Positions 22,148 through 41,193 of a DNA stretch of 54,784 nt are shown here, piece by piece (within the stretch, counting starts at the first letter, position 1; the number at the start of each line of letters is the position of its first letter). Position numbers and translations under genes: made by a program. The notes under the pieces were generated by a model. The model did no database searches and was not told where the DNA came from. It saw only the letters and a program-made list of their open reading frames with translations. Source of the stretch: Candidatus Poribacteria bacterium (lineage in GTDB: Bacteria; Poribacteria; WGA-4E; WGA-3G); the NCBI GenBank assembly GCA_022821965.1, contig JAJECN010000015.1, positions 1-54,784 on the forward strand, read 5' to 3'.

Positions 22148-22849
22148 CGTTTCCCCAACCGCTAACGAAATAATTTCCACATCCTGAGATGCTGTCAATT
22201 TACGGAGTTCTTCAGGGGTTCCTGTCAATAGTGGGAAAGTGCCGTAATGGATGGGTAGAATCGCTGGGACATTGAGCAGTTGTGCAGCGTAAGTGGCTTC
22301 ACGGGGTCCCATCGTAAAATGGTCACCGATGGGCAGTAGTGCCAAGTCAGGTTGATAAATCTCACCGATAATCCGCATATCACCGAAAACATTCGTATCT
22401 CCAGCGTGATAGATCTTATAGCCGTTTCCAAATTCAATAATGTAACCCGCTGGTTCGCCTAAATAAACTGTTGTGCCGTCTTCCTCTGTGAAGCTGCTGC
22501 TATGGTTGGCTGAGACCATCGTTGCCTTCACGTCCCCGACTGTGACAGTGCCACCTTTGTTCATCCCAATTGTGTTCTCAATTCCATGTTTGCCGAGCCA
22601 TCCTGCGATTTCGACGATGGATACAACTGTCGGTGTATGTTTTTTCGCAAGAGGCACCGCGTCGCCGATATGATCAGCGTGCCCGTGTGTTATGAGGATA
22701 ATATCAAGACTGTCGAAGGTCTTGAGCGCGTCAGGACACACAGGGTTATTGGTTACCCACGGATCTATGAGAAGTGTTTGTCCATCCGCTTCGATTTTGA
22801 AGGTGGAATGTCCGAGCCATGTCAGGCGAATACCGTTATTCAATTTCAT
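22139..22849 (-). CDS. UPF0173 metal-dependent hydrolase (beta-lactamase fold)
   Basis: 236 aa, usual length. The opening LTWLGHSTFKIE and the metal motif THGHADHIGD (H-x-H-x-D-H) near 54-63 are diagnostic of the UlaG-like/UPF0173 group. Further ligands are in SANHSS, HAGDTNVFGD and the closing PIHYGTFP. Hydrolytic substrate unknown. Cytoplasmic. Its ATG overlaps the stop of the upstream PLP enzyme (22846-22849), a coupled pair, and its 3' end overlaps the nucleotidyltransferase by nine bases on the opposite strand. Confidence 0.92.
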   Translation of the reverse strand: MKLNNGIRLTWLGHSTFKIEADGQTLLIDPWVTNNPVCPDALKTFDSLDIILITHGHADHIGDAVPLAKKHTPTVVSIVEIAGWLGKHGIENTIGMNKGGTVTVGDVKATMVSANHSSSFTEEDGTTVYLGEPAGYIIEFGNGYKIYHAGDTNVFGDMRIIGEIYQPDLALLPIGDHFTMGPREATYAAQLLNVPAILPIHYGTFPLLTGTPEELRKLTASQDVEIISLAVGETLD

Positions 22850-23967
22850 GCTGTCTTACCTAAGATTTCCTTTAATCTTTGAGCGATAATTTCTATTTCT
22901 CCGGGCATCAGGGTTTGTCCGTTGATGAGGACACCGTCTGCCCCCGCGCCTGCGATGTCAATGGAAGGTTCACCTGCTGCGAGTTGCTGGAGGATTTCGT
23001 CTCGTGTGATGCCGAGTTGTTCTGCGTCAAATCGGATTTCGGTGCGCGGCATCGGTTGTCCGGCTTCGGAGGGGAAGCTACGATGTACTGTAACACCTTG
23101 GATGTCCGAGAACACCTCGCCATAATAGGTAACCTGATCTTCGTAGGATTGCTGTAATGCTTCGTGGTCCTGATCCAGATACCATTTGACAGCGGCGAGC
23201 AAACCGACCATCTCCTCTTTACCGACTTTCATGCCCCTGCCGATAAACGGATGTGGTGGTCCGTTGAAGGCGATAGCCTCAATCAACGATTTTTTTCCGA
23301 CGATTAAGCCGCTACTTTGGGGACCACACAAACCTTTTCCACCGCTAAAGAGTGCTAAATCCGCCCCCATCTCCGTAAAACGCCATAGATTTTCTGGAGG
23401 TGGCAACTGTGCGGCAGCATCAACGATGAGTGGGACACCGTGCCTTTCGGCGATTGCGATGGCTTCTTCATAAGACACCCAGAGATGTTCTCTGCCCGGG
23501 TTCGCGAAGTAGAAGATCGCGGCGGTTTTCTCATTGATAGCGTTTTCTAACTCGTCAGCGGTCGTTCCGTTTTCATCGCCTATTTCTACGAACGTGACCC
23601 CGACTTGCCGAACAGCAAAGTCGTATCCGACACGACCGTGACGGTGCACGATAACTTCACTTTTCATCGATGCGTCGAGGTGGGGCAATTTTTCGCGTTT
23701 GGTGGTGTCGAGTCCGGTGATACACGCTGCAGTGCTGAGTGTTAGCGCAGCGGCGGCACCACAGGAGACATAAGCTGCTTCGTTATGTGTGAGTGTCGCA
23801 ATCTCTTCACCGACCCGTTTTTGGAGTTCAATAATATCGACAAAGTGCTTTGAGGCTTCAACCATCGCCTCAACAACTTCAGATGGCATAATTGAACCAC
23901 CGAGCCGTGTGAGCGTCGCGTTGCCGTTGATAACTGTGCGAATGCCCAAGCGTTTATAAATAGTCAT
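22846..23967 (-). CDS. SelA/DgaE-like PLP-dependent enzyme
   Basis: 373 aa. Fold-type I PLP enzyme of the group containing selenocysteine synthase-like proteins and D-glucosaminate-6-phosphate ammonia lyase. Seen: the opening RTVINGNATLTRLGGS typical of the SelA-like branch, DAAAQLPPPENL with the cofactor Asp, and SGGKGLCGPQSSG with the Schiff-base Lys. No selenocysteine tRNA context is present, so a lyase or transaminase role on a sugar or amino acid is more likely than SelA itself. Coupled by a four-base overlap to the UPF0173 hydrolase. Confidence 0.85.
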   Translation of the reverse strand: MTIYKRLGIRTVINGNATLTRLGGSIMPSEVVEAMVEASKHFVDIIELQKRVGEEIATLTHNEAAYVSCGAAAALTLSTAACITGLDTTKREKLPHLDASMKSEVIVHRHGRVGYDFAVRQVGVTFVEIGDENGTTADELENAINEKTAAIFYFANPGREHLWVSYEEAIAIAERHGVPLIVDAAAQLPPPENLWRFTEMGADLALFSGGKGLCGPQSSGLIVGKKSLIEAIAFNGPPHPFIGRGMKVGKEEMVGLLAAVKWYLDQDHEALQQSYEDQVTYYGEVFSDIQGVTVHRSFPSEAGQPMPRTEIRFDAEQLGITRDEILQQLAAGEPSIDIAGAGADGVLINGQTLMPGEIEIIAQRLKEILGKTA

Positions 23968-24136: not shown

Positions 24137-24943
24137 TTATCCCACTTCCTCACCGTCTAATTTACCGACGTGGAGATCAATCTCTTCGCGTGTCTCGATT
24201 TTGTCTACTTTGCCATCTGCCATGTGGAAGATACGGTCGGAGACATCCAACATCTTATGGTCGTGCGTCGCTGTGATAATGGTCACACCGTTTTCATCAT
24301 TAAGGCTACGGAGTAGTGCTATAATCTCTAACCCGGTTTTGGTATCAAGGTTTCCCGTCGGTTCATCAGCAAGGACGATCGCTGGGTCGTTGGCGAGCGA
24401 GCGTGCGATTGCAACACGTTGCTGCTGTCCACCGGAGAGTTCTAAGGGTTTGTGTTGCACGCGGTCACCGAGTCCAACGAGGCTAAGGAGTTCAATACCT
24501 TTCTCTCTGCTTTCATCAGCACTCATACCGGCGAAGATCATCGGAAGTGAGACGTTTTCGAGTGCTGTCATGACGGGGATGAGGTTGAACGATTGGAAAA
24601 TATAACCGATCTTTCGACAGCGGAGCCACGCGAGTTCATACGCATCAAGTTGTGCGATGTCCACTTCATCAATGTAGACTCGCCCCTCGGTCGGTTTGTC
24701 TAAGCCACCGATCATGTTAAAGAGCGTTGATTTCCCTGAGCCTGAGGGTCCCATGATTGAGATGTACTCACCGCGCTGGATTTGGAAATTGACACCGCGG
24801 AGGGCATCTACAGTCTGGGTACCCATCTCATACCGTTTGATAAGGTTTCGGACGCGAACTGTGTTCTCTTTGGGAATAAGACGCTCAAAGCGTTCTGGTG
24901 TTTCGGCGAAAGTTGCGCCAACATCACCTATTTGTTCGTTCAT
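24137..24943 (-). CDS. LolD/MacB-type ABC transporter ATPase
   Basis: 268 aa. Walker A GPSGSGKST, Q-loop FQSFNLIP, signature LSGGQQQRVAIARS, Walker B IVLADEPTGNLD, switch ATHDHKM. The motif set is that of the type VII (MacB/LolD/FtsE) ATPases. About 28 extra residues precede the first beta strand and a charged tail follows the last. It is the most downstream gene of the minus-strand cluster that begins with the giant FtsX protein at 36399. That protein is the likely partner permease, since no other FtsX gene lies on this strand. Partnering is inferred. Confidence 0.9.
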   Translation of the reverse strand: MNEQIGDVGATFAETPERFERLIPKENTVRVRNLIKRYEMGTQTVDALRGVNFQIQRGEYISIMGPSGSGKSTLFNMIGGLDKPTEGRVYIDEVDIAQLDAYELAWLRCRKIGYIFQSFNLIPVMTALENVSLPMIFAGMSADESREKGIELLSLVGLGDRVQHKPLELSGGQQQRVAIARSLANDPAIVLADEPTGNLDTKTGLEIIALLRSLNDENGVTIITATHDHKMLDVSDRIFHMADGKVDKIETREEIDLHVGKLDGEEVG

Positions 24944-24987: not shown

Positions 24988-25455
24988 TTATCGTCTCAAT
25001 AAGGATCCAAAAAATCCGGGTTTAGGGGGTTCGGGCTCCGGCGTTGCTGGTGCATTCTGTTGACGGTTAGGAATAGCGAACCCTATAAAGTTCCGTTTGC
25101 CGAGTTGCTGCATGAACGTAAAGAGCGATGTTTCTGCCTCTTTACGAGTCAGTTGGTACTGTTTTTGGACCCCGTTTCTAATCTGCGAAATTGTATGCTT
25201 ACCATCGCACATCTGCCACACATAGGTCCCGATAGAATCCAACACAATCACCCTTTTATCAGGGAGCATAAAGAGTTTACCGGCGAGCCGAAGCCAGAGT
25301 TTGTCTTTCTGTGGAATGACGAGTGAGGCTTCGCCTTTATCGTCTACCTCCCAAGTTATGAGTTGGTTCCGCACAGGAAACGACTTCATCACCTGAGCCC
25401 GGTCCACATCGGGACGTTTCTTAAGTTTGAGTGCGTATAAGATTCTATTCAGCAT
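24988..25455 (-). CDS. PqqD-like protein (RiPP recognition element)
   Basis: 155 aa. Residues about 55-125 read as a PqqD domain: LPDKRVIVLDSIGTYVWQMCDGKHTISQI, then a helix GVQKQYQLTRKEAETSLFTFMQQL. PqqD folds bind leader peptides in RiPP pathways, but stand-alone PqqD proteins also occur outside them. The first 50 residues add a basic segment, and the tail is proline/glutamate rich with a final FFGSLLRR. No radical-SAM enzyme or obvious precursor peptide lies nearby. The ATPase starts 44 bases downstream. The N-terminal MLNRILYAL has no membrane helix. Confidence 0.75.
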   Translation of the reverse strand: MLNRILYALKLKKRPDVDRAQVMKSFPVRNQLITWEVDDKGEASLVIPQKDKLWLRLAGKLFMLPDKRVIVLDSIGTYVWQMCDGKHTISQIRNGVQKQYQLTRKEAETSLFTFMQQLGKRNFIGFAIPNRQQNAPATPEPEPPKPGFFGSLLRR

Positions 25456-25582: not shown

Positions 25583-26617
25583 TTAATGACATTCAATGCT
25601 TTCAGCAACCTTCTTGACCGTCGGGGACGCATTGGTGCTGCCGATGGACTGAATGACATAGATACGGTTGGAATGATTACATCGCCAGAGATGAAACACG
25701 AGTGCTGTCCGCTTCGATAGTTTGTCGAGCATCAGCACGGGACTGAACGGTATACCGTCGTAAAGTCGGGTCTGTTCTCCAATAAGCGTTAGCCGTTCAT
25801 CCTCCGAATCTGTCTCAGGCTTTACTTCAAATCCGTAGCCACGGATTGCTTTTGCGTATTTGGCACGAAACCATGCTTCCAATGGATTCGGTGTATCTTT
25901 ATAGTCATTCAGCATGACTTCTGCCGGTCCGTACCGTTCAACGCTAAGACGCCCTCTGTCAGGCGGTGAAAAATCTAAATCTTCTACTGAACCATTATTC
26001 CGTAGACGACTGCTCGCCAGTTTAGCAAGTTTTACCACACTTTGAAAACGAACAGGCTTTGCAGCGAATGCAAACAACAAGTAGCCACTGAGCAGTTTCT
26101 GACGTTCCAATTTGTATGCTTTCGGAACACCGAGTTTGAGTCCGTAGGCACTCCACAGCGTCAGTGGTGCGTCGCCACGGTCTACAATTGATTGGAAAAT
26201 CCGCAACACTGTGGGTCGCCAGTTCTCTTTCAGCCGCCCCATCACCTGCACAATCGTGATCCGTTTTCCGGTGTGGAAAATCAACCCGTTGGCACGGATA
26301 CTCCCTTTCCAACTAAAGCCGAGAACGGTGCGCCCCTTAAAGAATTCATCTTCTTTAATGAAGTTAACGTTCCGACGGAAAGAGAGTTCGCCCCCTTTCT
26401 TATAAGTCTTGCGAATCAACTTGAAATATTCATCGAGTGTTGCGTGGAGGTCTGGCTTTTTGCGTCGAGTATGCGCCCATTTGAGTTCAAGACGAGGCAT
26501 CTCTCCGTCATCAAGACGAAGGTACCCCGTCTTTTGATCTCCACTGAGTCCGCTGAGTTCCCATGTTGTGGGTATTTCCAGCTCTATGCCTGCCCAACCA
26601 AAAGTAGTCCAGTTCAT
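25583..26617 (-). CDS. Hypothetical protein, 344 aa, with two related halves
   Basis: Not a family I recognise. It opens MNWTTFGWAGIELEIPTTWE, and near residue 155 a similar motif recurs (LWSAYGLKLGVPKAYKLE). Both are followed by a strand carrying a Leu-rich stretch, suggesting a duplicated beta domain of the kind seen in PsbP/DUF-type lipid or ligand-binding folds; that comparison is only a guess. No signal peptide or membrane helix. Very basic in the middle (RRKKPD, KTYKKGG). It lies between the OPT-like transporter and PqqD genes on the same strand, so it is probably part of the same system. Confidence 0.7.
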   Translation of the reverse strand: MNWTTFGWAGIELEIPTTWELSGLSGDQKTGYLRLDDGEMPRLELKWAHTRRKKPDLHATLDEYFKLIRKTYKKGGELSFRRNVNFIKEDEFFKGRTVLGFSWKGSIRANGLIFHTGKRITIVQVMGRLKENWRPTVLRIFQSIVDRGDAPLTLWSAYGLKLGVPKAYKLERQKLLSGYLLFAFAAKPVRFQSVVKLAKLASSRLRNNGSVEDLDFSPPDRGRLSVERYGPAEVMLNDYKDTPNPLEAWFRAKYAKAIRGYGFEVKPETDSEDERLTLIGEQTRLYDGIPFSPVLMLDKLSKRTALVFHLWRCNHSNRIYVIQSIGSTNASPTVKKVAESIECH

Positions 26618-26728: not shown

Positions 26729-28717
26729 TTAAAACGGTTTGACGATAACGGCTTTAGAGACAAGGGCGATCGCCACAGTCCCCATGCCGATGAGACCGAC
26801 ACCACACGCAAACCCTGCTGCAAGTACCGGGTTGAACATGTACCAGCGTTTCATACCGAATCGCTTAATCATGTAAAACCGTCCAATAATCGCACCAAGG
26901 AGTCGGGCAACCATACTTCCTGGGTCTGCCCCAATACCGCCTATAATACCGTAGAACCACATTGAAGGCATTTTGAAGACCCACAGCATCCCGTAGATTG
27001 CGATACTGCCGGTAAATCCAGCAGCGACGTAATCCCCGCGAAGTGCCTGAAGCATTTCGCTATTTCCATCCCGCAACGACGTTTTCATGAGACATTCGTT
27101 TGTGGCGTTAATGGGCCACATCATCTGTGCGTATGGATACTGTGCACTGGGGATAGGTGCAATCTTCCAAATAAAGTGGAGTACCACAATTCCACTGACG
27201 ATCAGGATTGGCATAATCAGGAGCGTGCCAGCAAGGTTTGAAGTGAAAGTTGTACCTGTCAATTCAAGGACTCGCCAACTCTGTGTACCACGTCCATAAT
27301 CTTCGTCCGGGAATGGTGCGAACCAGATATCTATCTCTTCATAGCGACTCAAAATAAAGGTAATTTCGTGTAGGTACGGTATTTCAAAGAGGTCGCGTCC
27401 CAACACCCCGAAGGTCCGTGCGGTGATATACGAGTTGAGCGGTGTATATAGGAATGCGAAGCCTAACAGGAAACTCAATGGGAAATTCGGCACCATCCAG
27501 TGAATGAGCCAGACAAATCCACCCATACCGATGAACCACATTAATCCCATCAACCATATTGGAAAATCGCCACGGTTCGGAGGCGGAGCGAAGGTGCCGC
27601 GTTCGCCAGCAGTTTTCTTGGTTCTCCGCATTTTAAAGATCATGGGAACCGAAGCCGCCATCCCGACGACTGCGAAACTGAATGATTTCCCCATGTTGCC
27701 GCTCATCCAGAAATCCAGCCCATTGTACAAACCAACACCCCGAACGTCTAATCCAGGTTTCCACTGGTGAAGTATCTCAAATCGGTACAGGATATGTGGG
27801 TTCAAGATAAATTGTGTTGCCATTGACGCAATAAATTCTGTCATCACCACCGGGAACGGCAGCACGAACCCAAAGAGCATCTGTCCGAAGTCAGTGTGGA
27901 GGGCGAAAACACCTGTTGGTGCGAAACCTTCGATACTCTGCGTGAAGTCTATCCACGGAATCTTCAGGATCTGAATCGGCTGGCTCATCATGACACCGGT
28001 GAGCGAAGGCACGCCGATATAGAGGAACCCCCAGATGAGTCCTGCCATTGAGCCGATAGAAAAAATTCGCCACCGCCAGGTCTCCTCTTTGCCAGTTGTT
28101 TCGGCGAGTGCTGTTGCTCCCTGAGCACTAATGGGTGCCATCGGATATGGCAGTCGTTCAAGGTCCGCCGTGAGCCGGAACAAGATATACTGCCCGCTGA
28201 CAAATCGCAACGTGCCGAGCAATTTTCCTGCGAGGTAGACACCGATGGGTAGGAGCCAGTCTGGATGCAGCAGACTTCGAGTGAGCACGCCGACGGAATC
28301 ACCTGCTGGCACAATCCAGTCAGGTATTTTGTCAGCGATTTCGTATGATGCCGCCTGCGGGGTATTGATGAAGTAGGCGTACCAGATAAAGTTCCGGTAT
28401 TGCAATCCACTTCCGACTGCTGCGCCTGTTAACCCGAGGAGCATATAAAGCTCCTGTCGCCGGGCAGTCGTGAAGGACCGCCGTGCGAGCTCGGTGAATA
28501 GAATAACGGCAACCCAAGGTGCTGCGCCAGCACCGGATTGGCCGGATACATAACTGAGATAGATGGAACCCGGCATCATCAGCAAGCCAACAAAAAGTGC
28601 TCCGATAAACACCTTAACCGTTAATCCCGACTCAAAGGTACGGATACCACCTTCCATGTCGTATCGCTGCGCCCAAGCTTGCCATTCATCTGCTTGTGTT
28701 ACTCGTTCTCTTGCCAA
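26729..28717 (-). CDS. OPT-like multi-pass membrane protein (DUF6785/DUF6784 type)
   Basis: 662 aa with roughly fourteen to sixteen hydrophobic helices. The N-terminal segment RTFESGLTVKVFIGALFVGL and the helix pair at PYPMAPISAQGATALAET recall oligopeptide-transporter (OPT) superfamily members, and large poribacterial/planctomycete proteins of this build are annotated DUF6785 plus DUF6784. Conserved-looking loops include DFGQMLFGFVLPFPVVMTEF and FGMKRWYMFNPVLAAGFACG. Substrate unknown. It lies in the middle of the cluster 36399 to 24137. The start ATG at 28717 follows a modest GGAGAA on the minus strand. Confidence 0.78.
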   Translation of the reverse strand: MARERVTQADEWQAWAQRYDMEGGIRTFESGLTVKVFIGALFVGLLMMPGSIYLSYVSGQSGAGAAPWVAVILFTELARRSFTTARRQELYMLLGLTGAAVGSGLQYRNFIWYAYFINTPQAASYEIADKIPDWIVPAGDSVGVLTRSLLHPDWLLPIGVYLAGKLLGTLRFVSGQYILFRLTADLERLPYPMAPISAQGATALAETTGKEETWRWRIFSIGSMAGLIWGFLYIGVPSLTGVMMSQPIQILKIPWIDFTQSIEGFAPTGVFALHTDFGQMLFGFVLPFPVVMTEFIASMATQFILNPHILYRFEILHQWKPGLDVRGVGLYNGLDFWMSGNMGKSFSFAVVGMAASVPMIFKMRRTKKTAGERGTFAPPPNRGDFPIWLMGLMWFIGMGGFVWLIHWMVPNFPLSFLLGFAFLYTPLNSYITARTFGVLGRDLFEIPYLHEITFILSRYEEIDIWFAPFPDEDYGRGTQSWRVLELTGTTFTSNLAGTLLIMPILIVSGIVVLHFIWKIAPIPSAQYPYAQMMWPINATNECLMKTSLRDGNSEMLQALRGDYVAAGFTGSIAIYGMLWVFKMPSMWFYGIIGGIGADPGSMVARLLGAIIGRFYMIKRFGMKRWYMFNPVLAAGFACGVGLIGMGTVAIALVSKAVIVKPF

Positions 28718-29070: not shown

Positions 29071-32000
29071 TTAATCTGCTGGAGTTGGTGCTGGTTCCAT
29101 CTGTGCTGTTTCTTCCGCCGAACCATCTGTGCCTTCGGTTCTGCCGCGTTCGTGGAACTCTGATCGAACATCGACACTGAACGTCCGCCAAATCAGGAGT
29201 TGTTTCCGCAGTAGGTTGAGGAACCGTCGGTTCACTCGCTTCCAAGAGGCGATCTCACCACTCTCGCGATGTACATCCAATGTAATCTTGTAGAGGTCCT
29301 CCTCTTCACCACCGGCTGGGGATGTGACGAATTGAATAGACTGACTCACACCCAAATCATAAGGTGCTAACCATACCATCATCCCGATTTGATAGGAATC
29401 CTCTGCTTCCACTTGACTGAAAGCAACCTGATCCGTATAGAAGTCGCTGGCGGATTCGTCTGCGTGCGCCTCAAAGTAATCCCGCATAAAGACGTTCAAC
29501 CCAAGTGCTTCTTCTTCAAGAACAGTGAAAGGCAGATTGAAATGCCATACGTCGCCCTCAGGTTCCGGGAGTTTCCATTTACGTTCAATATCAGGAACAG
29601 CCATCCGTGAGGCTTTAATCGCTGGGTACATGGTACTCAGCAGCACCACAGCCATGACGATAATCGTTGCGACAACGGTTGACATTGATGAGTAATTGAG
29701 CGTCAATCCGGCAAGCCAACCGAAATGCACGAGAGTTGTCGCTATCGCTTGTCCCATGAGGTAGCCTAACACCGCGCCGACAATCGCATAGACGCATGCC
29801 TCAGCAAGGAAGAGGAAGGCGATATGCACAGGCGCGAGTCCGACAGAACTGTAAATACCAATTTCACGAACCCGTTCATAGACTGCACCAAGCATGGTGT
29901 TGAGCACGATAAGTGCTGCGATCAAGATTGGAACAAACAGGTTGCCCATCCCACTGAAACTCGTCATCCCGATACTGCTGTAGAGGTATGTGTCTTTATC
30001 ACGCCCGACAAAGAAATCAAGTGCGATGCGGTTCATAAGTGGTGCCATGATAAGGTCCAACTTATCTATTGCGCCAAGCAATTTCGGGTCGTCATCTCTC
30101 GGTTCCATATTAACAGCGACGCTTCGGAGTGTCCCGCCTTGGTTCATAACGACCTCATAAGGAAGAATGGCAATACTGTCTGGTGTGAGATGGAGATATT
30201 TCTGTAATTCACCTTCAAGGGTCTCATCACCAGTAGCACCGCGGCTCCGCTGCTGTTGCATCAATTGATAGTCAACAGGTGTGAGTTCTTCACCATCGTT
30301 ATCGGTTAGGTCTTTAAAACCGATACCGAGCACACCAACAACGGTGAAGTCAGCACCGTAAACAGAGACGGTCGCTTTCCCCATATCGCTTTCGGTGATT
30401 TTCAGCAATTCTGCCATTCCTTTGGGCAGCACAATGCAGTATGGCCACTCTGTGGGCCATTCATGGGCATCTGCCGGGTTGAACCATTTTCCGTATTGGA
30501 GGTACCTGTCAATACCGCTGACACCTGGTTCTGCTTCGTTCATACCCACGAGCATGTTTGCTGCGAACGTCAACGCTTCACCCGTGAGTTGATGTGTCGG
30601 TGGTGATGAATCTGCCGGATTTGGCGTACGTGTAAGTTGAACGAATGATTGATCTCCTGTGCCTGAAGACTGATACCACGCACGCGGGGCGACGACGTTC
30701 CGAACAGTCACAATGGATTCTTCGTCTCCCTGTTCAATGAAACCCCCTTGTTCTAAAGCGGCAACTGCTGCTGGAATGTCAATCGGTTGTTGTCCCTGCT
30801 TAATGAGCAGTTCGTTCTTACGCGCCAGAAGTCTTTCTAAAGCTGTGAGTGTGATCTGCGTTTTCTGCATGTCGTTTAGCACAGAGGTAAGCACTGGTTC
30901 TTCAAGTGGACGCCAGTATTGGTCACGGATAAGAAGTCCCGTATAGCGCGGTGTCACCTGCGGCAAACTCGTTCTATTCGGATGCATAAACGTCCGCACA
31001 GACGTAAACGAGATGACCGTAAAGGTAAGGATGACCAACGTGCAACAGGTCAGGATCGTACGTCCTTTCCGTTTCCGCATGTTGGAAATACCCAAACTAA
31101 ACGCTGCTGCACTCGCACTCAACCTGCCGACATCAGCTTTATAAACCTTGTTCCCTTCTTGGCGGATTTTTTCGAGTTGCTCCTCAAATTTCCGGACAAT
31201 AATACTGATAACAATAACGGTTAAGGCAAGTACAACGAACGCAATCAAGATAATCACAGGGGTTGTCGTAATCTGGAATGCGGGGTGAACTTGGCTCAAG
31301 AAGAAAAACACAAGTAGAAAGATGGCAAATGATCCGACAATCTGCTTGTGGATATTCGGGAAACCGAAGATGAGCCGTTCCATAAAGTAGGCAAACGGCA
31401 TCAGCAAGGCCAGGTAGAACATTACGCCGTTAACGACATCGTTCCCCGTCTGTTTGACATCTGGGTATGCGCGTGATTCGTAACCCCACGCGGCACGTGC
31501 GAGTTTAAGTGCTTGTTGGTAATCGCTTTGAAGCAGCTCGGTCTCCGCGCGTGCGAGGTATTCATTCGCGAATTGATGGAGTTTATCGAGGCGGTCGCTG
31601 GAGATACCGAACCGTTTATAGAGTCGCGATCGGTTCTCATCAAGCCACCACATATCACGAACAACGACGTAGGGTGTAAGACGGATCTGCCCATTTTCAC
31701 GGACGACAAACCCTTCGCCGGTGTAAAGCGTCGGGTTTTTCATACCGCTCTTTGTCGCCTTAATGAGTAAGAGACGTTTGCCGATCTGTCCGTAAGCCAT
31801 TCCGACTTTAATGCGAGTGTTCGGTTCGCTATAGACGAGGGCAATAGGTTCGGCTGCGGAGACCCCTTCTTGCTGCCACGGTTTGGACATTCCGAACTTC
31901 TCCGGCGCGCTATCGGTGAGTGCGTCGTAGACTTCAAGTTCTCGCAATGTCCGTAGATACCGTTGGTCCACCAAGTCGTAGATAGTTGTAGACACGCAGG

Positions 32001-35000
32001 GGAACGCAACGACACGACACCCACGTCTGCGGGTATTGATTGGGACTTTATTCGGGAGCAGTTTCGCACCGTAATTCCCCAAGTCTGGGGCATAGACGAT
32101 GTCGCCGGAATCCGGATCAAGAATGTATGCTTCGACCTCTTGGGCACCACCGAGACGACGTGTCGCTCTGCCTTCCATGGCTAATCCGGCAACCTCAAAG
32201 TTCCCCTTGTTATCGCCCATCACAAACAGATCACCACGCACACCCATCATGGATTTGTGCTTTCTACGGAGTGTCAGAATAGGATAAGGCACGGGTTTGT
32301 TCGGTAGTGCGGACTCGCGCGCATCGAATTCAACGACATCGCCGAAGAGGTTACAGTAGAAATTCCCGACGCGTGCTGCAGTGGGCATCTCTTCATCACG
32401 GAGGGCTTGGATAAGTAGTGATGCCAAGGTCTGCGCTTGTTGATGGAGGTTGCCACCTTCCTGTAAATCGACGCGTTCAATTGTATCGAGTGGGGTATCC
32501 GTTAAAACACGGGCATCTTCAATAGTTGCAAAAGCGATGCCAGTTTTTCCAACAAGTGTCGCTACCTCGCTGTCAAAGGCGATCTTACCGGGGATATAGG
32601 TTTTCCAAGTCTTTCCACCACTTGCGGAGATGGCGTTAACAAAGTTCGACTCGCCACCGAGACCCGCAATTGAGATGAGGGTTCTAATGTCCTCAATTTC
32701 GTCGTCGGAGAAGGTATCTGGGTCTTCATACCGAAGTCGGAGCATGGCATCTAACTGCTCACGCGTACGGATGTTGTTTTTCCGATTTTTCTTTGCTGTA
32801 CGGACATCGTTTCGGATGAAACGCTCTACCTCTTTACGGATATAATCCATGTCTTTGAGCATATCCTCAGAGGGTTCGCCTTGGTTGCGCCACTGCTCAA
32901 ACTGCATCTTCATGAGTCGACTCACACCGCTGAGTCCTGTGAGTTTGCTGAAGTGCGAACTCAGTAGTGTTTCAAGCGTTTTTCCTTCAAGGGCAGCTTT
33001 GTCAGAGATTCCGTTTGCGACCGTCCATTGACGGGTCATCACGGCTTGTCGGATTTGGTCGTCTGTCCACTGCCAAAGTTTACGAACACGGACACCAAAA
33101 TCGGCATCTTCAGCGTAAGAGGCAAGCTTATTGCCGATACTTGCAAACTCACGCCGCAGAACAAATTCGGGCTGTTGATCGTAGAACCATCCCTTGTTAA
33201 ACACGCCGAACTGATTCGACTGTGAAGAGAGATCAATGCTGATATAGAGGGAAGTGTAGTAGCGGTTAAACAGATCTTGGAGGGCAATAGCCGCCTCAAT
33301 CTGTCCGAGTTTCCGATTGTATTCACTGGTGTCAATGCGCAACATTTTTTCAACGCGGCTCTGAATGTTTCGGAAACGTGCGTTTCGTAAGGTTAACAGA
33401 TTATCGCGTAGGAGCACCTTGGTCTCATCATCCAAATCGGTATCTAATGTGGGTAACCGTTCAAAGAGATTTTCGAGTGCGATAATATCTGCGTCCGCTC
33501 GCTTTTTGATGATTGCTAATAGTGTTGTTTCGCTAATATGTGATGCGATGCGAGAGCGTAGCGAAAGTGCTTGTTCGACTTCTTCCTCTGAGAGGTAATT
33601 TTCCAAGATGAGGCGTTCTTCATCCAAATATTCCCGCCCTAATGTTCCCGCTGTTGCGATCAAGTACTGGATGCGTGTTTGTTCCAATCGGGCGTTCCGA
33701 AGTGCAATTTCAAAGATACCTTGTTTATCCTTGAGAATGTCTGCTATTAATATAGTGGTATCAGTGGCATCTTCAGATTCGTTTAACCGCTGGCGAAGTT
33801 GGGTATCAATAGTATTGAGTCGTTCGATTCCGGCTTTCGACAAAAACTTACCGCTATAAATCGGAGAATCACCGCTCAGTTTGTCCATCGGTGTGTCCTT
33901 GAGTTTCCGGATGCTTGTTTTGATCTCATCTTCAACCTGTTGGCTATCAGGTATTTGTGCGAGAACCTTTTCGAGTAATTGGACCTCTCGCTGGATTGCG
34001 ACTTCTTGGGAGTCGGTAGCATCGCGCAAAACACTGCGTGCGTCTTTCACTTTATTGAGTGAGTGTAGGTCAAGATGCCGGTCGAGTATTTTCTCGGGGG
34101 TCCACATTAAGGTAAATTTGCTCTTGTCGCTCAGCTCCCAGTTTGCAAGGGTTTTGTTAAGCATCTCAAGGTCAGGCATGAGTTCTTGCGGGAGGTCTTC
34201 CGGTACGGGAATTTGCCAATCTGAGCCTTGTTGTACGGGGAGAAGGTATGCATGATTTGGGTGTGTAGCATATTCATTGATGGTGCCGGTTTCTATGGCG
34301 CGAGTGAGTTTCTCTACCGCCCATATATCGAGGCGGGCTATCGGTAGTGCGAGCGTTTCAATCAATTCGCGCTGCGCGGATCGGCTTGTGTCAAGTGCAA
34401 CAGTGCGAACCTCAGTTAATCTTTCAACGATGTCTCGGAGGAAGTGGGTCGTTTGCAGTGCCTCTTTCTTTGAGCGTGCAAGATTTACCAACAAGCGACT
34501 CTTTTCTTCACCCGTGAAGCCTTGCTTCTCACGTTTTCGGTTTCTATCTGTTTGTTTCTTCTGGCGTTCTGAGAAGTCCCGCTGTTGCTCCGTGAGGTTT
34601 TCGATTTCGGAGCGAGTCTCTGCTAAACCGTCAAGCGTTGTTCCGAGCGATTCCAAATCAGCCTTTACCCTATGTATACCGTGGAAGAAATAGGCAGGGA
34701 GATCAACAAGGACGCTCCGGTCAATGGAGAGTAGGAGTCTTCTGCCTAATTCTTCAAATTCGATGATATCAGTAGAAAGCCCACGGCGGAGTCCATGCAT
34801 TGTTGGCGTACCGGGTGAGTCTGTGGCAGAACCCACAATATCTTGTCCGATACCTTCCATAAAAGCACGCATTCCAGCAAGCCCTTGAAAATGTCCGTCG
34901 ATTGCGACAAAGAGGACGGAGTAGCCCGGACGATACTGGGGTTGACTGAAGAGGCGAGCGAGTTCCATCAAGGTTGCGATACCACAGGTCGGATCTGCAC

Positions 35001-36399
35001 CGGGTGCCATTGCGGGCACAACAGACATAGAGTCATAATAAGCGGTGAGGATGATGAGTTCGTCACGTAGTGTCGGGTCTCCACCTTCTAAAAATCCGCG
35101 TATGTTCTGTCCAACACGGCGTTCCCACGTCATCTTACCTCTAACACGGACATTAACCTGATTCCCTTGCGCCTGTTCCTCTTGAAGTAGATTGGTGAGA
35201 ACATCCGCATCTTTTTTGGAAAGCCAAAATCGCGGTATGTTGGCGGGGACGGTACCGAACTTGTTTTCTGCTTCCCCTCGGATAGTGGTTTCGGGTTCAA
35301 TAAAGATGACAGCTGTGCCACCGAGCATCGCGGCGTTGATGTAACGGGTACTGGAGTTAAAGTCAAGGAGGACTATAGCCCCTTTGGGGATGAAGATGTG
35401 TGATTCGCTTGCGGCGACGAACTCGCCTGTTTCATCGACCTGTCCGTCGTTATTGTTATCGATCCCATCGGTAGCGTCGCCTGAGCTTTCATCCGTCCAA
35501 CCATCGGCATCGTTGTCAATGCCGTCTGTTGCCCATCCCAGAATTTCCGAGAGCAGCGGTATTTCGCCATATTCGTCAACGGTACCGTCTTCATCGTTGT
35601 CAATACCGTCAGATGCTTTTTGCAGGTGTTCGTTGAGTATGTCGTCAGTAATGCTGGCTTCGGTGATGCGGTAGCGACGTGCGAGAGCTGTGAGGGTGTC
35701 TCCATCTTGAAGTTTATACCAGAATCCACCGATGTTTGTGCCGTTGAAATCAGCGAGTTCGCCATCATCAGCGTAAAGGAGTGGACCGGACAAACCACCT
35801 GTTGGAACGAAAACTGTACTTCCTTCAACGATAGGGGTTGGCAAAAATTTGTTCCGTTCGTTTGCGAGAATAGTCGCTTCAGGGACTTGGTAACTTAAGG
35901 CTATATCTTCAAGTGTTTCGTCTGCTAAAACGGTATGTTTAATGCCATCTGCTAACAGGGAGGTACGAACGAGGTTGGGCCAGAGTGGTGTAAGTTTAAA
36001 GGTGTGCAGCACAGTGCCTTCAGGGGAGAGGACTTCAACAACACTGTCTCCGTGGTCGACCGGCACAGTCACAGAGAATTCTCGGCTTTCCACGTTTTGC
36101 AAACCGATCTCAGCGAACCGGTCAAAGATGTATTTACTACCACTCGCAGCTTGCGGATAGCCTGTTACGCGGCTATCAAGGCTTGAGAGGCGTGCAAGGT
36201 CCTTTCGAATGTTGCCGATAGAGAGGTCATCCCGAATCTGAATGGCTGCAGATTGCATGCCAGTACTGGAAATTGCTTGTGCGTATGCAGTATCCAACGG
36301 TTGCCCAGTCAAAAGCAAAACAGAAAGGAGAAGGGTTAATACATTTATTAGAGCACTGAAGTGTAGCGAGTATTGCTCGCGCCTACCACAAATTTTCAT
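29071..36399 (-). CDS. Giant FtsX/MacB permease fused to a degenerate M28 peptidase
   Basis: About 2442 aa from ATG 36399, which starts a good signal peptide ending AYAQA; an alternative TTG at 36477 would extend across a palindromic repeat. Segments in order: a peptidase-like N-terminus; LysM-like stretches near 35900 and 35700; three DGIDNDxDG calcium-loop repeats (about 35440-35615); an M28-like core (about 34840-35060); very long coiled coils (about 33000-34700); a beta-rich region; membrane helices (31020-31440); a large extracytoplasmic part; and an FtsX domain with YERVREIGIYSSVGLAP (about 29600-29960), then a C-terminal extension. The M28 metal residues look lost: AYYDS for AHYDS and GADPT for GADDN, and GHFQG stands where GEEQG is usual. 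Probably a non-catalytic sensor or binding head on an ABC permease whose ATPase is at 24137. Confidence 0.85.
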   Translation of the reverse strand: MKICGRREQYSLHFSALINVLTLLLSVLLLTGQPLDTAYAQAISSTGMQSAAIQIRDDLSIGNIRKDLARLSSLDSRVTGYPQAASGSKYIFDRFAEIGLQNVESREFSVTVPVDHGDSVVEVLSPEGTVLHTFKLTPLWPNLVRTSLLADGIKHTVLADETLEDIALSYQVPEATILANERNKFLPTPIVEGSTVFVPTGGLSGPLLYADDGELADFNGTNIGGFWYKLQDGDTLTALARRYRITEASITDDILNEHLQKASDGIDNDEDGTVDEYGEIPLLSEILGWATDGIDNDADGWTDESSGDATDGIDNNNDGQVDETGEFVAASESHIFIPKGAIVLLDFNSSTRYINAAMLGGTAVIFIEPETTIRGEAENKFGTVPANIPRFWLSKKDADVLTNLLQEEQAQGNQVNVRVRGKMTWERRVGQNIRGFLEGGDPTLRDELIILTAYYDSMSVVPAMAPGADPTCGIATLMELARLFSQPQYRPGYSVLFVAIDGHFQGLAGMRAFMEGIGQDIVGSATDSPGTPTMHGLRRGLSTDIIEFEELGRRLLLSIDRSVLVDLPAYFFHGIHRVKADLESLGTTLDGLAETRSEIENLTEQQRDFSERQKKQTDRNRKREKQGFTGEEKSRLLVNLARSKKEALQTTHFLRDIVERLTEVRTVALDTSRSAQRELIETLALPIARLDIWAVEKLTRAIETGTINEYATHPNHAYLLPVQQGSDWQIPVPEDLPQELMPDLEMLNKTLANWELSDKSKFTLMWTPEKILDRHLDLHSLNKVKDARSVLRDATDSQEVAIQREVQLLEKVLAQIPDSQQVEDEIKTSIRKLKDTPMDKLSGDSPIYSGKFLSKAGIERLNTIDTQLRQRLNESEDATDTTILIADILKDKQGIFEIALRNARLEQTRIQYLIATAGTLGREYLDEERLILENYLSEEEVEQALSLRSRIASHISETTLLAIIKKRADADIIALENLFERLPTLDTDLDDETKVLLRDNLLTLRNARFRNIQSRVEKMLRIDTSEYNRKLGQIEAAIALQDLFNRYYTSLYISIDLSSQSNQFGVFNKGWFYDQQPEFVLRREFASIGNKLASYAEDADFGVRVRKLWQWTDDQIRQAVMTRQWTVANGISDKAALEGKTLETLLSSHFSKLTGLSGVSRLMKMQFEQWRNQGEPSEDMLKDMDYIRKEVERFIRNDVRTAKKNRKNNIRTREQLDAMLRLRYEDPDTFSDDEIEDIRTLISIAGLGGESNFVNAISASGGKTWKTYIPGKIAFDSEVATLVGKTGIAFATIEDARVLTDTPLDTIERVDLQEGGNLHQQAQTLASLLIQALRDEEMPTAARVGNFYCNLFGDVVEFDARESALPNKPVPYPILTLRRKHKSMMGVRGDLFVMGDNKGNFEVAGLAMEGRATRRLGGAQEVEAYILDPDSGDIVYAPDLGNYGAKLLPNKVPINTRRRGCRVVAFPCVSTTIYDLVDQRYLRTLRELEVYDALTDSAPEKFGMSKPWQQEGVSAAEPIALVYSEPNTRIKVGMAYGQIGKRLLLIKATKSGMKNPTLYTGEGFVVRENGQIRLTPYVVVRDMWWLDENRSRLYKRFGISSDRLDKLHQFANEYLARAETELLQSDYQQALKLARAAWGYESRAYPDVKQTGNDVVNGVMFYLALLMPFAYFMERLIFGFPNIHKQIVGSFAIFLLVFFFLSQVHPAFQITTTPVIILIAFVVLALTVIVISIIVRKFEEQLEKIRQEGNKVYKADVGRLSASAAAFSLGISNMRKRKGRTILTCCTLVILTFTVISFTSVRTFMHPNRTSLPQVTPRYTGLLIRDQYWRPLEEPVLTSVLNDMQKTQITLTALERLLARKNELLIKQGQQPIDIPAAVAALEQGGFIEQGDEESIVTVRNVVAPRAWYQSSGTGDQSFVQLTRTPNPADSSPPTHQLTGEALTFAANMLVGMNEAEPGVSGIDRYLQYGKWFNPADAHEWPTEWPYCIVLPKGMAELLKITESDMGKATVSVYGADFTVVGVLGIGFKDLTDNDGEELTPVDYQLMQQQRSRGATGDETLEGELQKYLHLTPDSIAILPYEVVMNQGGTLRSVAVNMEPRDDDPKLLGAIDKLDLIMAPLMNRIALDFFVGRDKDTYLYSSIGMTSFSGMGNLFVPILIAALIVLNTMLGAVYERVREIGIYSSVGLAPVHIAFLFLAEACVYAIVGAVLGYLMGQAIATTLVHFGWLAGLTLNYSSMSTVVATIIVMAVVLLSTMYPAIKASRMAVPDIERKWKLPEPEGDVWHFNLPFTVLEEEALGLNVFMRDYFEAHADESASDFYTDQVAFSQVEAEDSYQIGMMVWLAPYDLGVSQSIQFVTSPAGGEEEDLYKITLDVHRESGEIASWKRVNRRFLNLLRKQLLIWRTFSVDVRSEFHERGRTEGTDGSAEETAQMEPAPTPAD

Positions 36400-36411
36400 C
36401 CGATTTGATTT

Positions 36412-36455
36412 ACGGACTGGAAACCCCTGAACACGTTCAGGAGACGCAAGTCCGT
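36412..36455. repeat. Nested palindrome at the 5' end of the giant gene
   Basis: ACGGACT (36412-36418) pairs with AGTCCGT (36449-36455) around CCTGAACACGTTCAGG (36426-36441), which is itself a hairpin. A second hairpin GCGAG-TATTG-CTCGC lies at 36366-36380. They overlap the region where the start codon must be chosen, so may form part of the leader mRNA and control translation. Confidence 0.6.
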
Positions 36456-36620
36456 CCTCCTTATGTATTTTTTTCAAAAAAGGATTAAACCTTTTTTAAC
36501 TTCGCACGCCTAATGTCTTGGAGAGCAGCGATTTTTCATATACCATACATCTCTTAGAAACTCGCCGATTTTTGTTTCCTCAAACAACGCCTCAAACGAA
36601 ATGCGCCTGAAGTCTATTCA

Positions 36621-37056: not shown

Positions 37057-37428
37057 GTGGCAAAAGAATCAAAGGATTCAAGTACTGACAAGGTTGTCTC
37101 ACGTATAAAACTGCGTCGTCGTGAATTGAAATTGACGCAAACAGAACTCGCAAAAGTGGCAAATCTAACGCCTGCTGCAATCTCGCAATTTGAATCGGGA
37201 GCCAGAAAACCCTCGTTTAAGACGCTTTCAAGTCTTTCTGATGCATTGAAGGTTACGACCGATTACCTCCTTGGAAAAACTGAAAAAAGCTACGGCGATC
37301 TCTTAGCCGATCCGAAGATTAGTGCTATGTTCAGGGGCATGATGGAATTTACGGAGAAGGATAAGGAAACACTCTACGAGTTCTACGAATTTCTCAAAAC
37401 CAAAGCAGAAGCCCAGAAGACAGAGTAG
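37057..37428 (+). CDS. XRE-family transcriptional regulator
   Basis: 123 aa from GTG 37057, with AAGGAG at 37045-37050. Residues about 15-72 form an HTH_3 domain: IKLRRRELKLTQTELAKVAN, recognition helix TPAAISQFESGARKPSFKTL, and the closing LSDALKVTTDYLLGK. The remaining 50 residues are a helical charged tail (DKETLYEFYEFLKTK), perhaps for dimerisation. Nothing else on this strand is nearby; a role in controlling the divergent giant-permease cluster is possible from position only. Confidence 0.92.
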   Translation: MAKESKDSSTDKVVSRIKLRRRELKLTQTELAKVANLTPAAISQFESGARKPSFKTLSSLSDALKVTTDYLLGKTEKSYGDLLADPKISAMFRGMMEFTEKDKETLYEFYEFLKTKAEAQKTE

Positions 37429-39408: not shown

Positions 39409-40275
39409 CTACGCTCCTTTAGTTAAAGTCGGTAGATTCACCTGAAAAACAAGAAAATTTCCATTAAAATGGTGTTGGAGAACAAAAACTTCCATTTGAG
39501 GAAATAAATTCGCACATTCCATTTCCCCAAATGCAATTTTCATCTTATTTTCCTCTTGGCTTTGCTCTATATCACCATGACATGGAACAATCAAGTTCAA
39601 TGTATCATCTCGGATTTGTGGATACTGATTTGAATTCAAAATGTTCGCGCCAGCTTTAACTTCGGTCATAATACGAAAGCGTAGCCGGACTGAGGCATCG
39701 TCTATGTTTCTCGTTCTACTGAAGGTTTCCTGCTCACTGAATATATCTAACAACTTCTGTTTCAGGGATGACGACAAAGACTCCCCAAGTTCGTTTAGCC
39801 GCTCTTCTAAGGCTTGGCCAAAAGCCTCTGAAATCAGCCTTGAAACAGGCACGGTCTCAAAAAACTTTCCGTGAGTCAAGCAAACTTTCACATTTGGTTG
39901 TTTTCTACCACGAATCAGATAGAAAACCTGGCGAATAGGTAAGGAAAGTATATCATTACCCGCTTCTTCCATCTGTGTTCGGATAACGTTTTCCTGTCCG
40001 GCCGTTAATTTCTTAACATTCTTTTCACCTGTCGGAATTGTTGAATTAAAGGAAGCAACCGAATAGGTTTTGCTATCCTTGAGTTCAATCAATTCGCCAC
40101 CAGTAAACTGCGAATCAGTGTGATTGAGTTTAATGGCTAAGTCAGGAAATCGCCCTTTGTTGACACAGGAAAGCATTTGTCCATCAAATGGAAAACTCTC
40201 AAGTTTATTTCCTGAGAGCAGCTTCTCTTTTTTCCGGCACAAGTCAACAAAGAAATGATAAATTGAGTAAGCCAT
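39409..40275 (-). CDS. Type II restriction endonuclease (candidate)
   Basis: 288 aa. Its start codon follows the stop codon of the methyltransferase with no gap. A PD-(D/E)xK nuclease core is visible: Pro44-Asp45, then 18 residues, Glu64-Leu-Lys66 (IELKDSK). The rest is unlike any enzyme I can name, so the recognition site is unknown. A C-terminal part rich in Asn/Gln (about 200-288) may be the recognition domain. It looks more AT-rich than neighbouring genes, in keeping with mobility of RM systems. Confidence 0.75.
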   Translation of the reverse strand: MAYSIYHFFVDLCRKKEKLLSGNKLESFPFDGQMLSCVNKGRFPDLAIKLNHTDSQFTGGELIELKDSKTYSVASFNSTIPTGEKNVKKLTAGQENVIRTQMEEAGNDILSLPIRQVFYLIRGRKQPNVKVCLTHGKFFETVPVSRLISEAFGQALEERLNELGESLSSSLKQKLLDIFSEQETFSRTRNIDDASVRLRFRIMTEVKAGANILNSNQYPQIRDDTLNLIVPCHGDIEQSQEENKMKIAFGEMECANLFPQMEVFVLQHHFNGNFLVFQVNLPTLTKGA

Positions 40276-41193
40276 CTACTGTTTTGATTCAAAAAGTGCT
40301 GTCTGTTTGGAGACAGATAGCTCAGCGGATTTGGACTGTCTCGTTAGAGCGGTTTTACCCCAAATAGTTTCCAAGTCTGGGGTACAGGCGTAATCCTTGA
40401 AAAAGCGAGAAACATCATCTGACTTTCTTTGTTCGACAAGTCTGTTTTGAATGAGCGCGACATTATGTGAGTCAAGTTCAATTCCTATTGCGTGGCGCTC
40501 TAACTGTTCCGCGACAACGAGCGTCGTTCCGGAGCCTGCGAACGGGTCGAGGACAACATCACCAGGATTTGTAGACGAAAGAATAATCCGAAGGAGCAAT
40601 TGGATAGGGGCTTGTTGTTTGTGCAAGCGACTCCCCGCTGCATCACGCAACGCTTCATCGCCTGCAAAGTAGCCCGAGGTTAACTCACGGATATCATCCC
40701 ACACGTCAGTAACAAACATACCGTTCTCGCGGGCATGTTTATAGCCTACTGGCAGTGGGGGGTCAATGCGTAACCGGTGGAAAACACGCGGTGTTTTCCC
40801 TTTCGTAGCGAACGCAATGACTTGGTAGTGTTTGCCGAAACGTTTCAACCCTGGTACTGCTGAGGTTTTCTTTTTCCAAATAATCAGGTTTTGAAAAGTC
40901 CATCCGGTATCGCGCAAGCACTGTAACACAAATTCTGCGTTTTTTTCTCGTTGCATGAAGTAAATTGCACCGCCATCGGAAGTCAATGCATATACCTTTG
41001 CACAGACCTCGCGCATCCACGCCCAGTACTCCGCTGGAGGCAGATTGTCGTCCCATGCCTTGTATCCTTTATCTTGATTGAAAGGTGGATCAAGAAAAGC
41101 CAGGTCTATTGGCGGAACAATGCGTTCGCGCACTAATACAGTCGTGCAACTGTCATGGAGGACGATACAATTTTTTTTCAATGAATTGTCCAT
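40276..41193 (-). CDS. Site-specific DNA methyltransferase (Type II, N4/N6)
   Basis: 305 aa. Catalytic motif IV DPPF at 35-38, followed much later by the SAM motif FAGSGTT near residue 220, so beta-class order (N6-adenine or N4-cytosine). The domain after DPPF (YKAWDDNLPPAEYWAWM) is usual for the N6_N4_Mtase family. Protects the host from the nuclease encoded immediately downstream; the specificity is unknown. No good ribosome-binding site is seen before the ATG. DUF350 ends 20 bases upstream. Confidence 0.93.
   Translation of the reverse strand: MDNSLKKNCIVLHDSCTTVLVRERIVPPIDLAFLDPPFNQDKGYKAWDDNLPPAEYWAWMREVCAKVYALTSDGGAIYFMQREKNAEFVLQCLRDTGWTFQNLIIWKKKTSAVPGLKRFGKHYQVIAFATKGKTPRVFHRLRIDPPLPVGYKHARENGMFVTDVWDDIRELTSGYFAGDEALRDAAGSRLHKQQAPIQLLLRIILSSTNPGDVVLDPFAGSGTTLVVAEQLERHAIGIELDSHNVALIQNRLVEQRKSDDVSRFFKDYACTPDLETIWGKTALTRQSKSAELSVSKQTALFESKQ

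Follow-up and report, generated by a model that had tools for sequence, protein, structure and literature searches.

The window, a 54,784-nucleotide stretch of a Candidatus Poribacteria contig, encodes a giant ABC permease whose N-terminal part has an M28-peptidase fold and has lost most of the metal site. The loss is conserved in every readable homologue, and the sequences indicate that the pseudo-enzyme is old and maintained, not decaying. Our preferred reading, to which we assign a probability of roughly 55%, is that the protein belongs to a type VII mechanotransmission complex with an ancient M28 pseudopeptidase built in as its extracytoplasmic head, comparable to FtsEX-EnvC. Both components, the type VII ABC system and the M28 pseudopeptidase, are of known kinds. 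They are fused here, and the system is a candidate for a core function. The literature that we searched, which included few subscription journals, describes neither this M28-permease nor its operon.

An M28 fold with most of its metal site lost

The open reading frame occupies 29071-36477 on the reverse strand, as do all of its parts described below, and spans 2468 aa counted from a TTG. The true start is likely the ATG at 36399 (aa 27), and many homologues begin to align at about aa 24-28. Behind this ATG lies a signal peptide (aa 38-66) with a hydrophobic stretch at aa 38-56 in hydropathy plots. Next come the M28/PA ectodomain, then a conserved domain with no recognized fold (31438-32340, aa 1380-1680; identity 64-100% inside the phylum and 34-47% outside it), three additional transmembrane helices seen by hydropathy (31198-31437, aa 1681-1760) and a type VII permease core. 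Hydropathy and the cleaved signal peptide together would place the M28 part outside the membrane. Named records from Poribacteria reach 92% identity to the protein across nearly its full length.

The ectodomain opens with a segment that aligns to PA+M28 aminopeptidases (35956-36246, aa 78-174). After a region of inserts comes the remainder of the PA-like domain (35158-35385, aa 365-440), which has a weak Pfam PA match and resembles the PA part of 2ek8 and YwaD. The first half of the M28 catalytic domain, identified by Pfam and by PDB profile, lies at 34849-35106 (aa 458-543). An insert splits the domain at this point, and its second half (aa about 1030-1375) is itself divided into a piece with Asp1082 (33103-33390) and the domain end with Asp1327 and the motif TDTPLD (32353-32664). 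The initial annotation, which placed the M28 region at 34840-35060, had therefore located the first half and missed the second, which lies beyond the large insert.

That annotation had called the M28 core recognizable, and profile comparisons bear this out. As a single sequence, the protein scores 31.8 bits against Pfam M28 (cut-off 21.3, E 1.4e-7). In a PDB search, the family profile matches the Vibrio aminopeptidase (E 2.7e-10) and, more strongly, 2ek8, an aminopeptidase with PA and M28 domains (E 4.7e-18). Profile-profile alignment with hhalign against 10 other M28 domains covers the whole catalytic domain at E 8e-20. With significant profile matches over the domain, we assign the M28 fold by homology. 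In hhalign, small alignments misplaced the strand carrying D179, and the final register comes from larger ones. Misalignment as the source of the unusual residues was rejected because M28 relatives in the same genome, with intact-looking motifs (HYD, GADDNASG and EELG), align in register.

Nicalin is the best PDB match of the single sequence. It is also the top Foldseek match of the modeled head, followed by the Streptomyces griseus aminopeptidase, in a search where E-values are poor (all at least 0.05). A special kinship with nicalin is not supported, because the family profiles lie closer to bacterial PA+M28 aminopeptidases. The AlphaFold models are weak, with a mean pLDDT of 68.7 for the head and 53.7 for the C-terminal part, the latter too poor for use. 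The head model is partly useful in that it shows long helices, and its active-site region is too weak for geometry to be judged.

Position names below follow the established Vibrio aminopeptidase numbering of M28 enzymes. The three motifs picked out initially (AYYDS, GADPT and GHFQG) are present exactly as described. In the first, T478-A-Y480-Y-D482-S, Tyr480 stands at the zinc-ligand position H97 and Asp482 retains the equivalent of Asp99 (Tyr480-Tyr-Asp482, 35032-35040). In the third, D527-G-H529-F530-Q-G-L, His529 replaces the catalytic E151 and Phe530 replaces the zinc ligand E152 (34888-34893). The second motif, A491-P-G-A-D495-P496-T, is less simple. GADPT (34987-35001) does occur where GADDN had been expected, but it is not a plain substitution: compared with GADDNxSG, the D117 loop lacks one residue. 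Which residue faces D117 is therefore ambiguous, and we rejected a direct change of D117 to Pro on the same grounds. Among homologues, this position varies between D, E, Q, S, T, N and G, leaving no conserved acidic ligand there.

The profile alignment, which stands in for a solved structure, extends the comparison to the second half of the domain. There, the equivalent of D179 is retained as Asp1082 (codon 33232-33234) and that of H256 has become Asp1327 (codon 32497-32499), which is as far as the five ligands are recovered elsewhere in the protein. From the residue set of active M28 enzymes (E151, H97, D117, E152, D179 and H256), D179 alone is kept. The original proposal that all main zinc ligands and the catalytic Glu are missing thus holds for the base and for four of the five ligands, but not for D179, and one of the four lost ligands, H256, was exchanged for Asp.

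An old and conserved loss

We collected 132 distinct readable sequences, 82 from Poribacteria and 50 from outside the phylum. The position of E151 is His in all of them and that of E152 is Phe in 125, while H97 occurs in none. Tyr480, His529 and Phe530 are invariant among the 82 Poribacterial sequences. In the 50 outside sequences, E151 is always replaced by His, E152 by Phe (43), Tyr (5) or His (2), and H97 by Phe or Tyr; H256 is Asp in 48/48 of those readable there. The substitutions are therefore conserved in homologues. Intact relatives, named in the initial annotation as evidence that would count against the loss, did not appear in the genomes searched, whether Poribacterial or from outside phyla: the catalytic Glu, the E152 ligand and H97 are absent from every one of the 132 sequences.

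Within the genus, both M28 halves have an omega of 0.01-0.02, similar to the low value of the FtsX core, whereas that of the coiled coil is 0.07-0.18. Strong purifying selection thus acts on each half of the M28 domain. Sequencing error and local decay were rejected on the strength of these omega values and of the same residues recurring in the 82 Poribacterial sequences.

The family is present in 81/84 searched genomes of the source phylum. Outside it, we found homologues in 16/16 genomes of one phylum, 2/2 of another, 31/35 of a third (including all 16 that are near-complete) and 5/5 of a fourth. Some scattered further genomes also carry one, and most other sampled genomes gave no match. Most genomes of the 16/16 phylum give at least three matches each. 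For genome G195 and its phylum, matches to the giant permease mostly number at least three per genome and reach up to nine stretches, some of them fragments, in one genome, which points to multiplication of paralogues there. Two genomes hold a second full-length paralogue (L090 and L091, second copies in bins that also contain L086 and L063), with no operon neighbours in the flanks that were fetched. Because the same residues recur across phyla and omega is so low in the M28 halves, the loss appears ancient and maintained. The best reading dates it before the split of these phyla, or no later than the spread of the family among them.

His529, Asp482, Asp1082 and Asp1327 are essentially invariant, and the other ligand positions are non-acidic or not conserved. 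For Asp482, which the search pattern behind the 132-sequence count demanded, invariance rests on separate alignments. Such a pattern raises the possibility that these four polar residues form a different catalytic or metal-binding site, perhaps a single-metal or metal-free one. A solved variant, 2anp, likewise has His at the E151 position (AAHE, against AAEE in 1amp), and this E151H mutant is reported to keep some activity. However, the Tyr or Phe at H97 and the Phe (rarely Tyr or His) at E152 are not normal zinc ligands, and the equivalents of Asp99 and D179 may be retained for structure. We consider a rewired site of this kind quite improbable. The pseudo-M28 domain is instead probably a head for binding or signalling, not an enzyme.

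The inserts that make the Poribacterial protein a giant lie in and around this domain. Most outside homologues measure 1460-1640 aa and have a contiguous M28 domain free of them. The PA-region inserts (35386-35955, aa 175-223 and 250-364), absent from outside homologues, contain two LysM motifs (E 2.7e-6) and three acidic repeats of the DGIDNDxDG type. The insert that splits the M28 domain (33391-34848, aa 544-1029) is a predicted coiled coil of about 490 aa. It is modeled as long helices with a pLDDT of about 90, and few outside homologues have it. A second helical insert (32665-33102, aa 1126-1271) is of a sort that most outside homologues also lack.

The loop that leads from His-Phe to the D179 strand is a hot spot of insertion. 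It holds long helices in Poribacteria and apparently also in a second copy in genome G415 (L214). In another homologue, L129 (a 1642-aa ORF), the same loop carries an F5/8 type C domain (aa 368-485, E 2.4e-19), and in L207 (1734 aa) it carries a hydrophobic hairpin at about aa 390-455 that is probably transmembrane. That inserts of several kinds occupy a loop beside the cleft could mean that the M28 fold is a structural relic, a mere rigid spacer or dimerisation domain whose old cleft is free of ligand. The transferrin receptor and nicalin, both M28-fold proteins with no enzyme activity, are among its PDB relatives. The residues that replace the catalytic pair, however, rank with the best conserved in the domain, which a spacer would not need, and we regard this explanation as very unlikely.

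The type VII permease and its operon

The permease core (29602-31059) consists of TM1 (aa 1807-1825), a MacB-like periplasmic domain and an FtsX domain with TM2-4 (aa 2182-2292). It matches Pfam FtsX at E 2.2e-12 and MacB_PCD weakly, as well as the structures of LolC, MacB and LolF. We assign it to the type VII permeases on its FtsX domain, four core TMs, MacB-like domain and the sizeable extracytoplasmic portion that separates TM1 from TM2, with the topology taken from hydropathy only, and on the LolD/FtsE/MacB-type ATPase in its operon, whose pairing with it is predicted. It falls outside the named families. The LolC/E and LolD NCBIfam scores are under their curated cut-offs, which places it outside LolCDE, and FtsE at 212 bits against 264.85 and FtsX at 13.9-21 bits against 250-255 place it outside FtsEX; scores are under the MacB cut-off as well. 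The sequences favor the earlier suggestion of a putative pseudo-enzyme on an ABC permease.

The giant permease heads an operon read in one direction (permease, OPT-like protein, 344-aa protein, PqqD-like protein, ATPase), with order and strand kept in 49/49 loci that hold all four downstream genes. The same neighbours are present in several other phyla. All four genes lie on the reverse strand of the window and are placed in the operon by synteny. The first encodes a polytopic membrane protein of 662 aa (26729-28717). Pfam OPT does not match this protein itself and a PDB search with its family found no match, while its homologue in locus L134 aligns to OPT over a long stretch at E 3.8e-4 (19.7 bits against a cut-off of 25.8). 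The 344-aa protein (25583-26617) could be assigned to no family and has homologues outside the phylum. The 155-aa PqqD-like protein (24988-25455) matches Pfam PqqD at E 1.2e-10, with 42 bits against 23.4, and does not reach the NCBIfam equivalogs. By its profiles, the last gene (24137-24943) encodes an ABC ATPase of the LolD/YbbA/MacB type, the predicted partner of the permease, and it shares 71-75% identity with its counterparts in the operons of other phyla.

An HTH_3 gene recognized by Pfam (37057-37428, forward strand) is transcribed divergently from the giant permease, an arrangement found in 45/45 loci where the gene occurs, and possibly regulates this operon. Two further genes on the reverse strand lie nearby. 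A SelA-like, DgaE-family PLP enzyme (22846-23967) lies behind the operon in many Poribacterial loci, though not in every one. An N6/N4 DNA methyltransferase (39409-41193) adjoins a 288-aa ORF of no clear family, possibly forming a restriction-modification pair with it.

In the other phyla, a mini FtsX permease precedes the ATPase; it measures about 220 aa and lacks a large periplasmic domain. The source genome has an orthologue of 229 aa (E 1.6e-71) on a different contig (C62:49086-49754), unlinked from the operon and followed by a LolD-like ATPase gene of its own; the two genes together occupy L203:6069-7532. Because the mini-permease sits in the operons of other phyla and has this orthologue in the source genome, the permease is likely heteromeric, made of giant and mini-permease. 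We infer the pairing from the operons of those phyla; in the source genome, the unlinked mini-permease has an ATPase to itself.

Both the mini-permease and the permease core match LolC/LolE/MacB, and the ATPase is LolD/YbbA-like, which would also suit a LolCDE- or MacB-like exporter or extractor. The pseudo-M28 head would then be a substrate-binding cap for a peptide, lipoprotein or hydrophobic molecule, receiving it from either the permease or the OPT-like channel before passing it along. The OPT-like and PqqD-like genes hint at peptides, and YbbAP-TesA offers a precedent for coupling a type VII ABC system with a hydrolase (PMC12646458). Against transport stand the LolC/E and LolD scores below their cut-offs, the absence of a LolA-like or outer-membrane partner beside the operon, and the LysM inserts in Poribacteria, which point to the cell wall. 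We view transport as an appreciable possibility, on balance unlikely.

A predicted mechanotransmission head

Type VII ABC proteins use ATP for moving periplasmic domains. In the mechanotransmission complex that we prefer, the giant permease, mini-permease and ATPases would assemble as a hetero-oligomer, and ATP binding and hydrolysis would move its periplasmic parts. A partner or ligand, most likely a peptide, a protein or a lipoprotein, could sit in or beside the inactive substrate cleft of the pseudo-M28 head, and the head would relay the movement in the way that EnvC does for FtsEX. Because the OPT-like and PqqD-like genes share the operon, a ligand of peptide or protein nature is plausible, and the role of ligand sensor or peptide-binding head offered in the initial annotation would be of this kind. 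In Poribacteria, the LysM motifs may tether the head to peptidoglycan or the cell wall, and the long helical arms inserted beside the old active site could extend its reach across the periplasm.

The closest parallel is FtsEX, which drives EnvC; the LytM (M23) domain of EnvC lacks catalytic residues and is coupled through a coiled coil to FtsEX (PMC7668044). In both systems, a coiled coil would connect a type VII permease and its ATPase with a pseudopeptidase outside the cytoplasm, with a link to the cell wall that is suggested here by LysM in the Poribacterial head. The pseudopeptidase differs in being M28 instead of M23 and in being fused to the permease. The OPT-like and PqqD-like subunits are extra here, and this system has no known amidase partner. 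LolCDE, MacAB and YbbAP-TesA share the FtsX and MacB-like domains, the LolD/YbbA-type ATPase and, likely, two different permease subunits, but none has a PA+M28 head. YbbAP additionally works with a hydrolase and is proposed to present hydrophobic molecules to TesA (PMC12646458).

Other relatives resemble the head alone. Nicalin, nicastrin and transferrin receptor 1 have the M28 fold, a lost metal site and a role at membranes, but unlike the Poribacterial head they are eukaryotic. The aminopeptidases 2ek8 and YwaD share the PA+M28 order, with homology detectable over both domains, whereas they keep the usual HxD, GAxD and EE motifs and have no ABC permease fusion.

A bolder extension of these ideas, which we find doubtful and offer as speculation, is a further undescribed type VII ABC machine that almost all genomes of five or more phyla retain. 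In it, the permease-fused M28 pseudo-aminopeptidase, the OPT-like protein and a PqqD-like adaptor would act at the cell wall, where they would sense or handle peptides or lipoproteins, perhaps by means of a rewired His/Asp pocket.

The phyla concerned are poorly studied; the source phylum is represented by metagenome assemblies, and many Poribacteria come from sponges. The protein described here would add a pseudo-enzyme subunit to type VII ABC systems, one built into the permease rather than docked onto it, and would give nicalin, nicastrin and the transferrin receptor a counterpart in bacteria. Its near-universal retention and strong conservation suggest a core function in the envelope.
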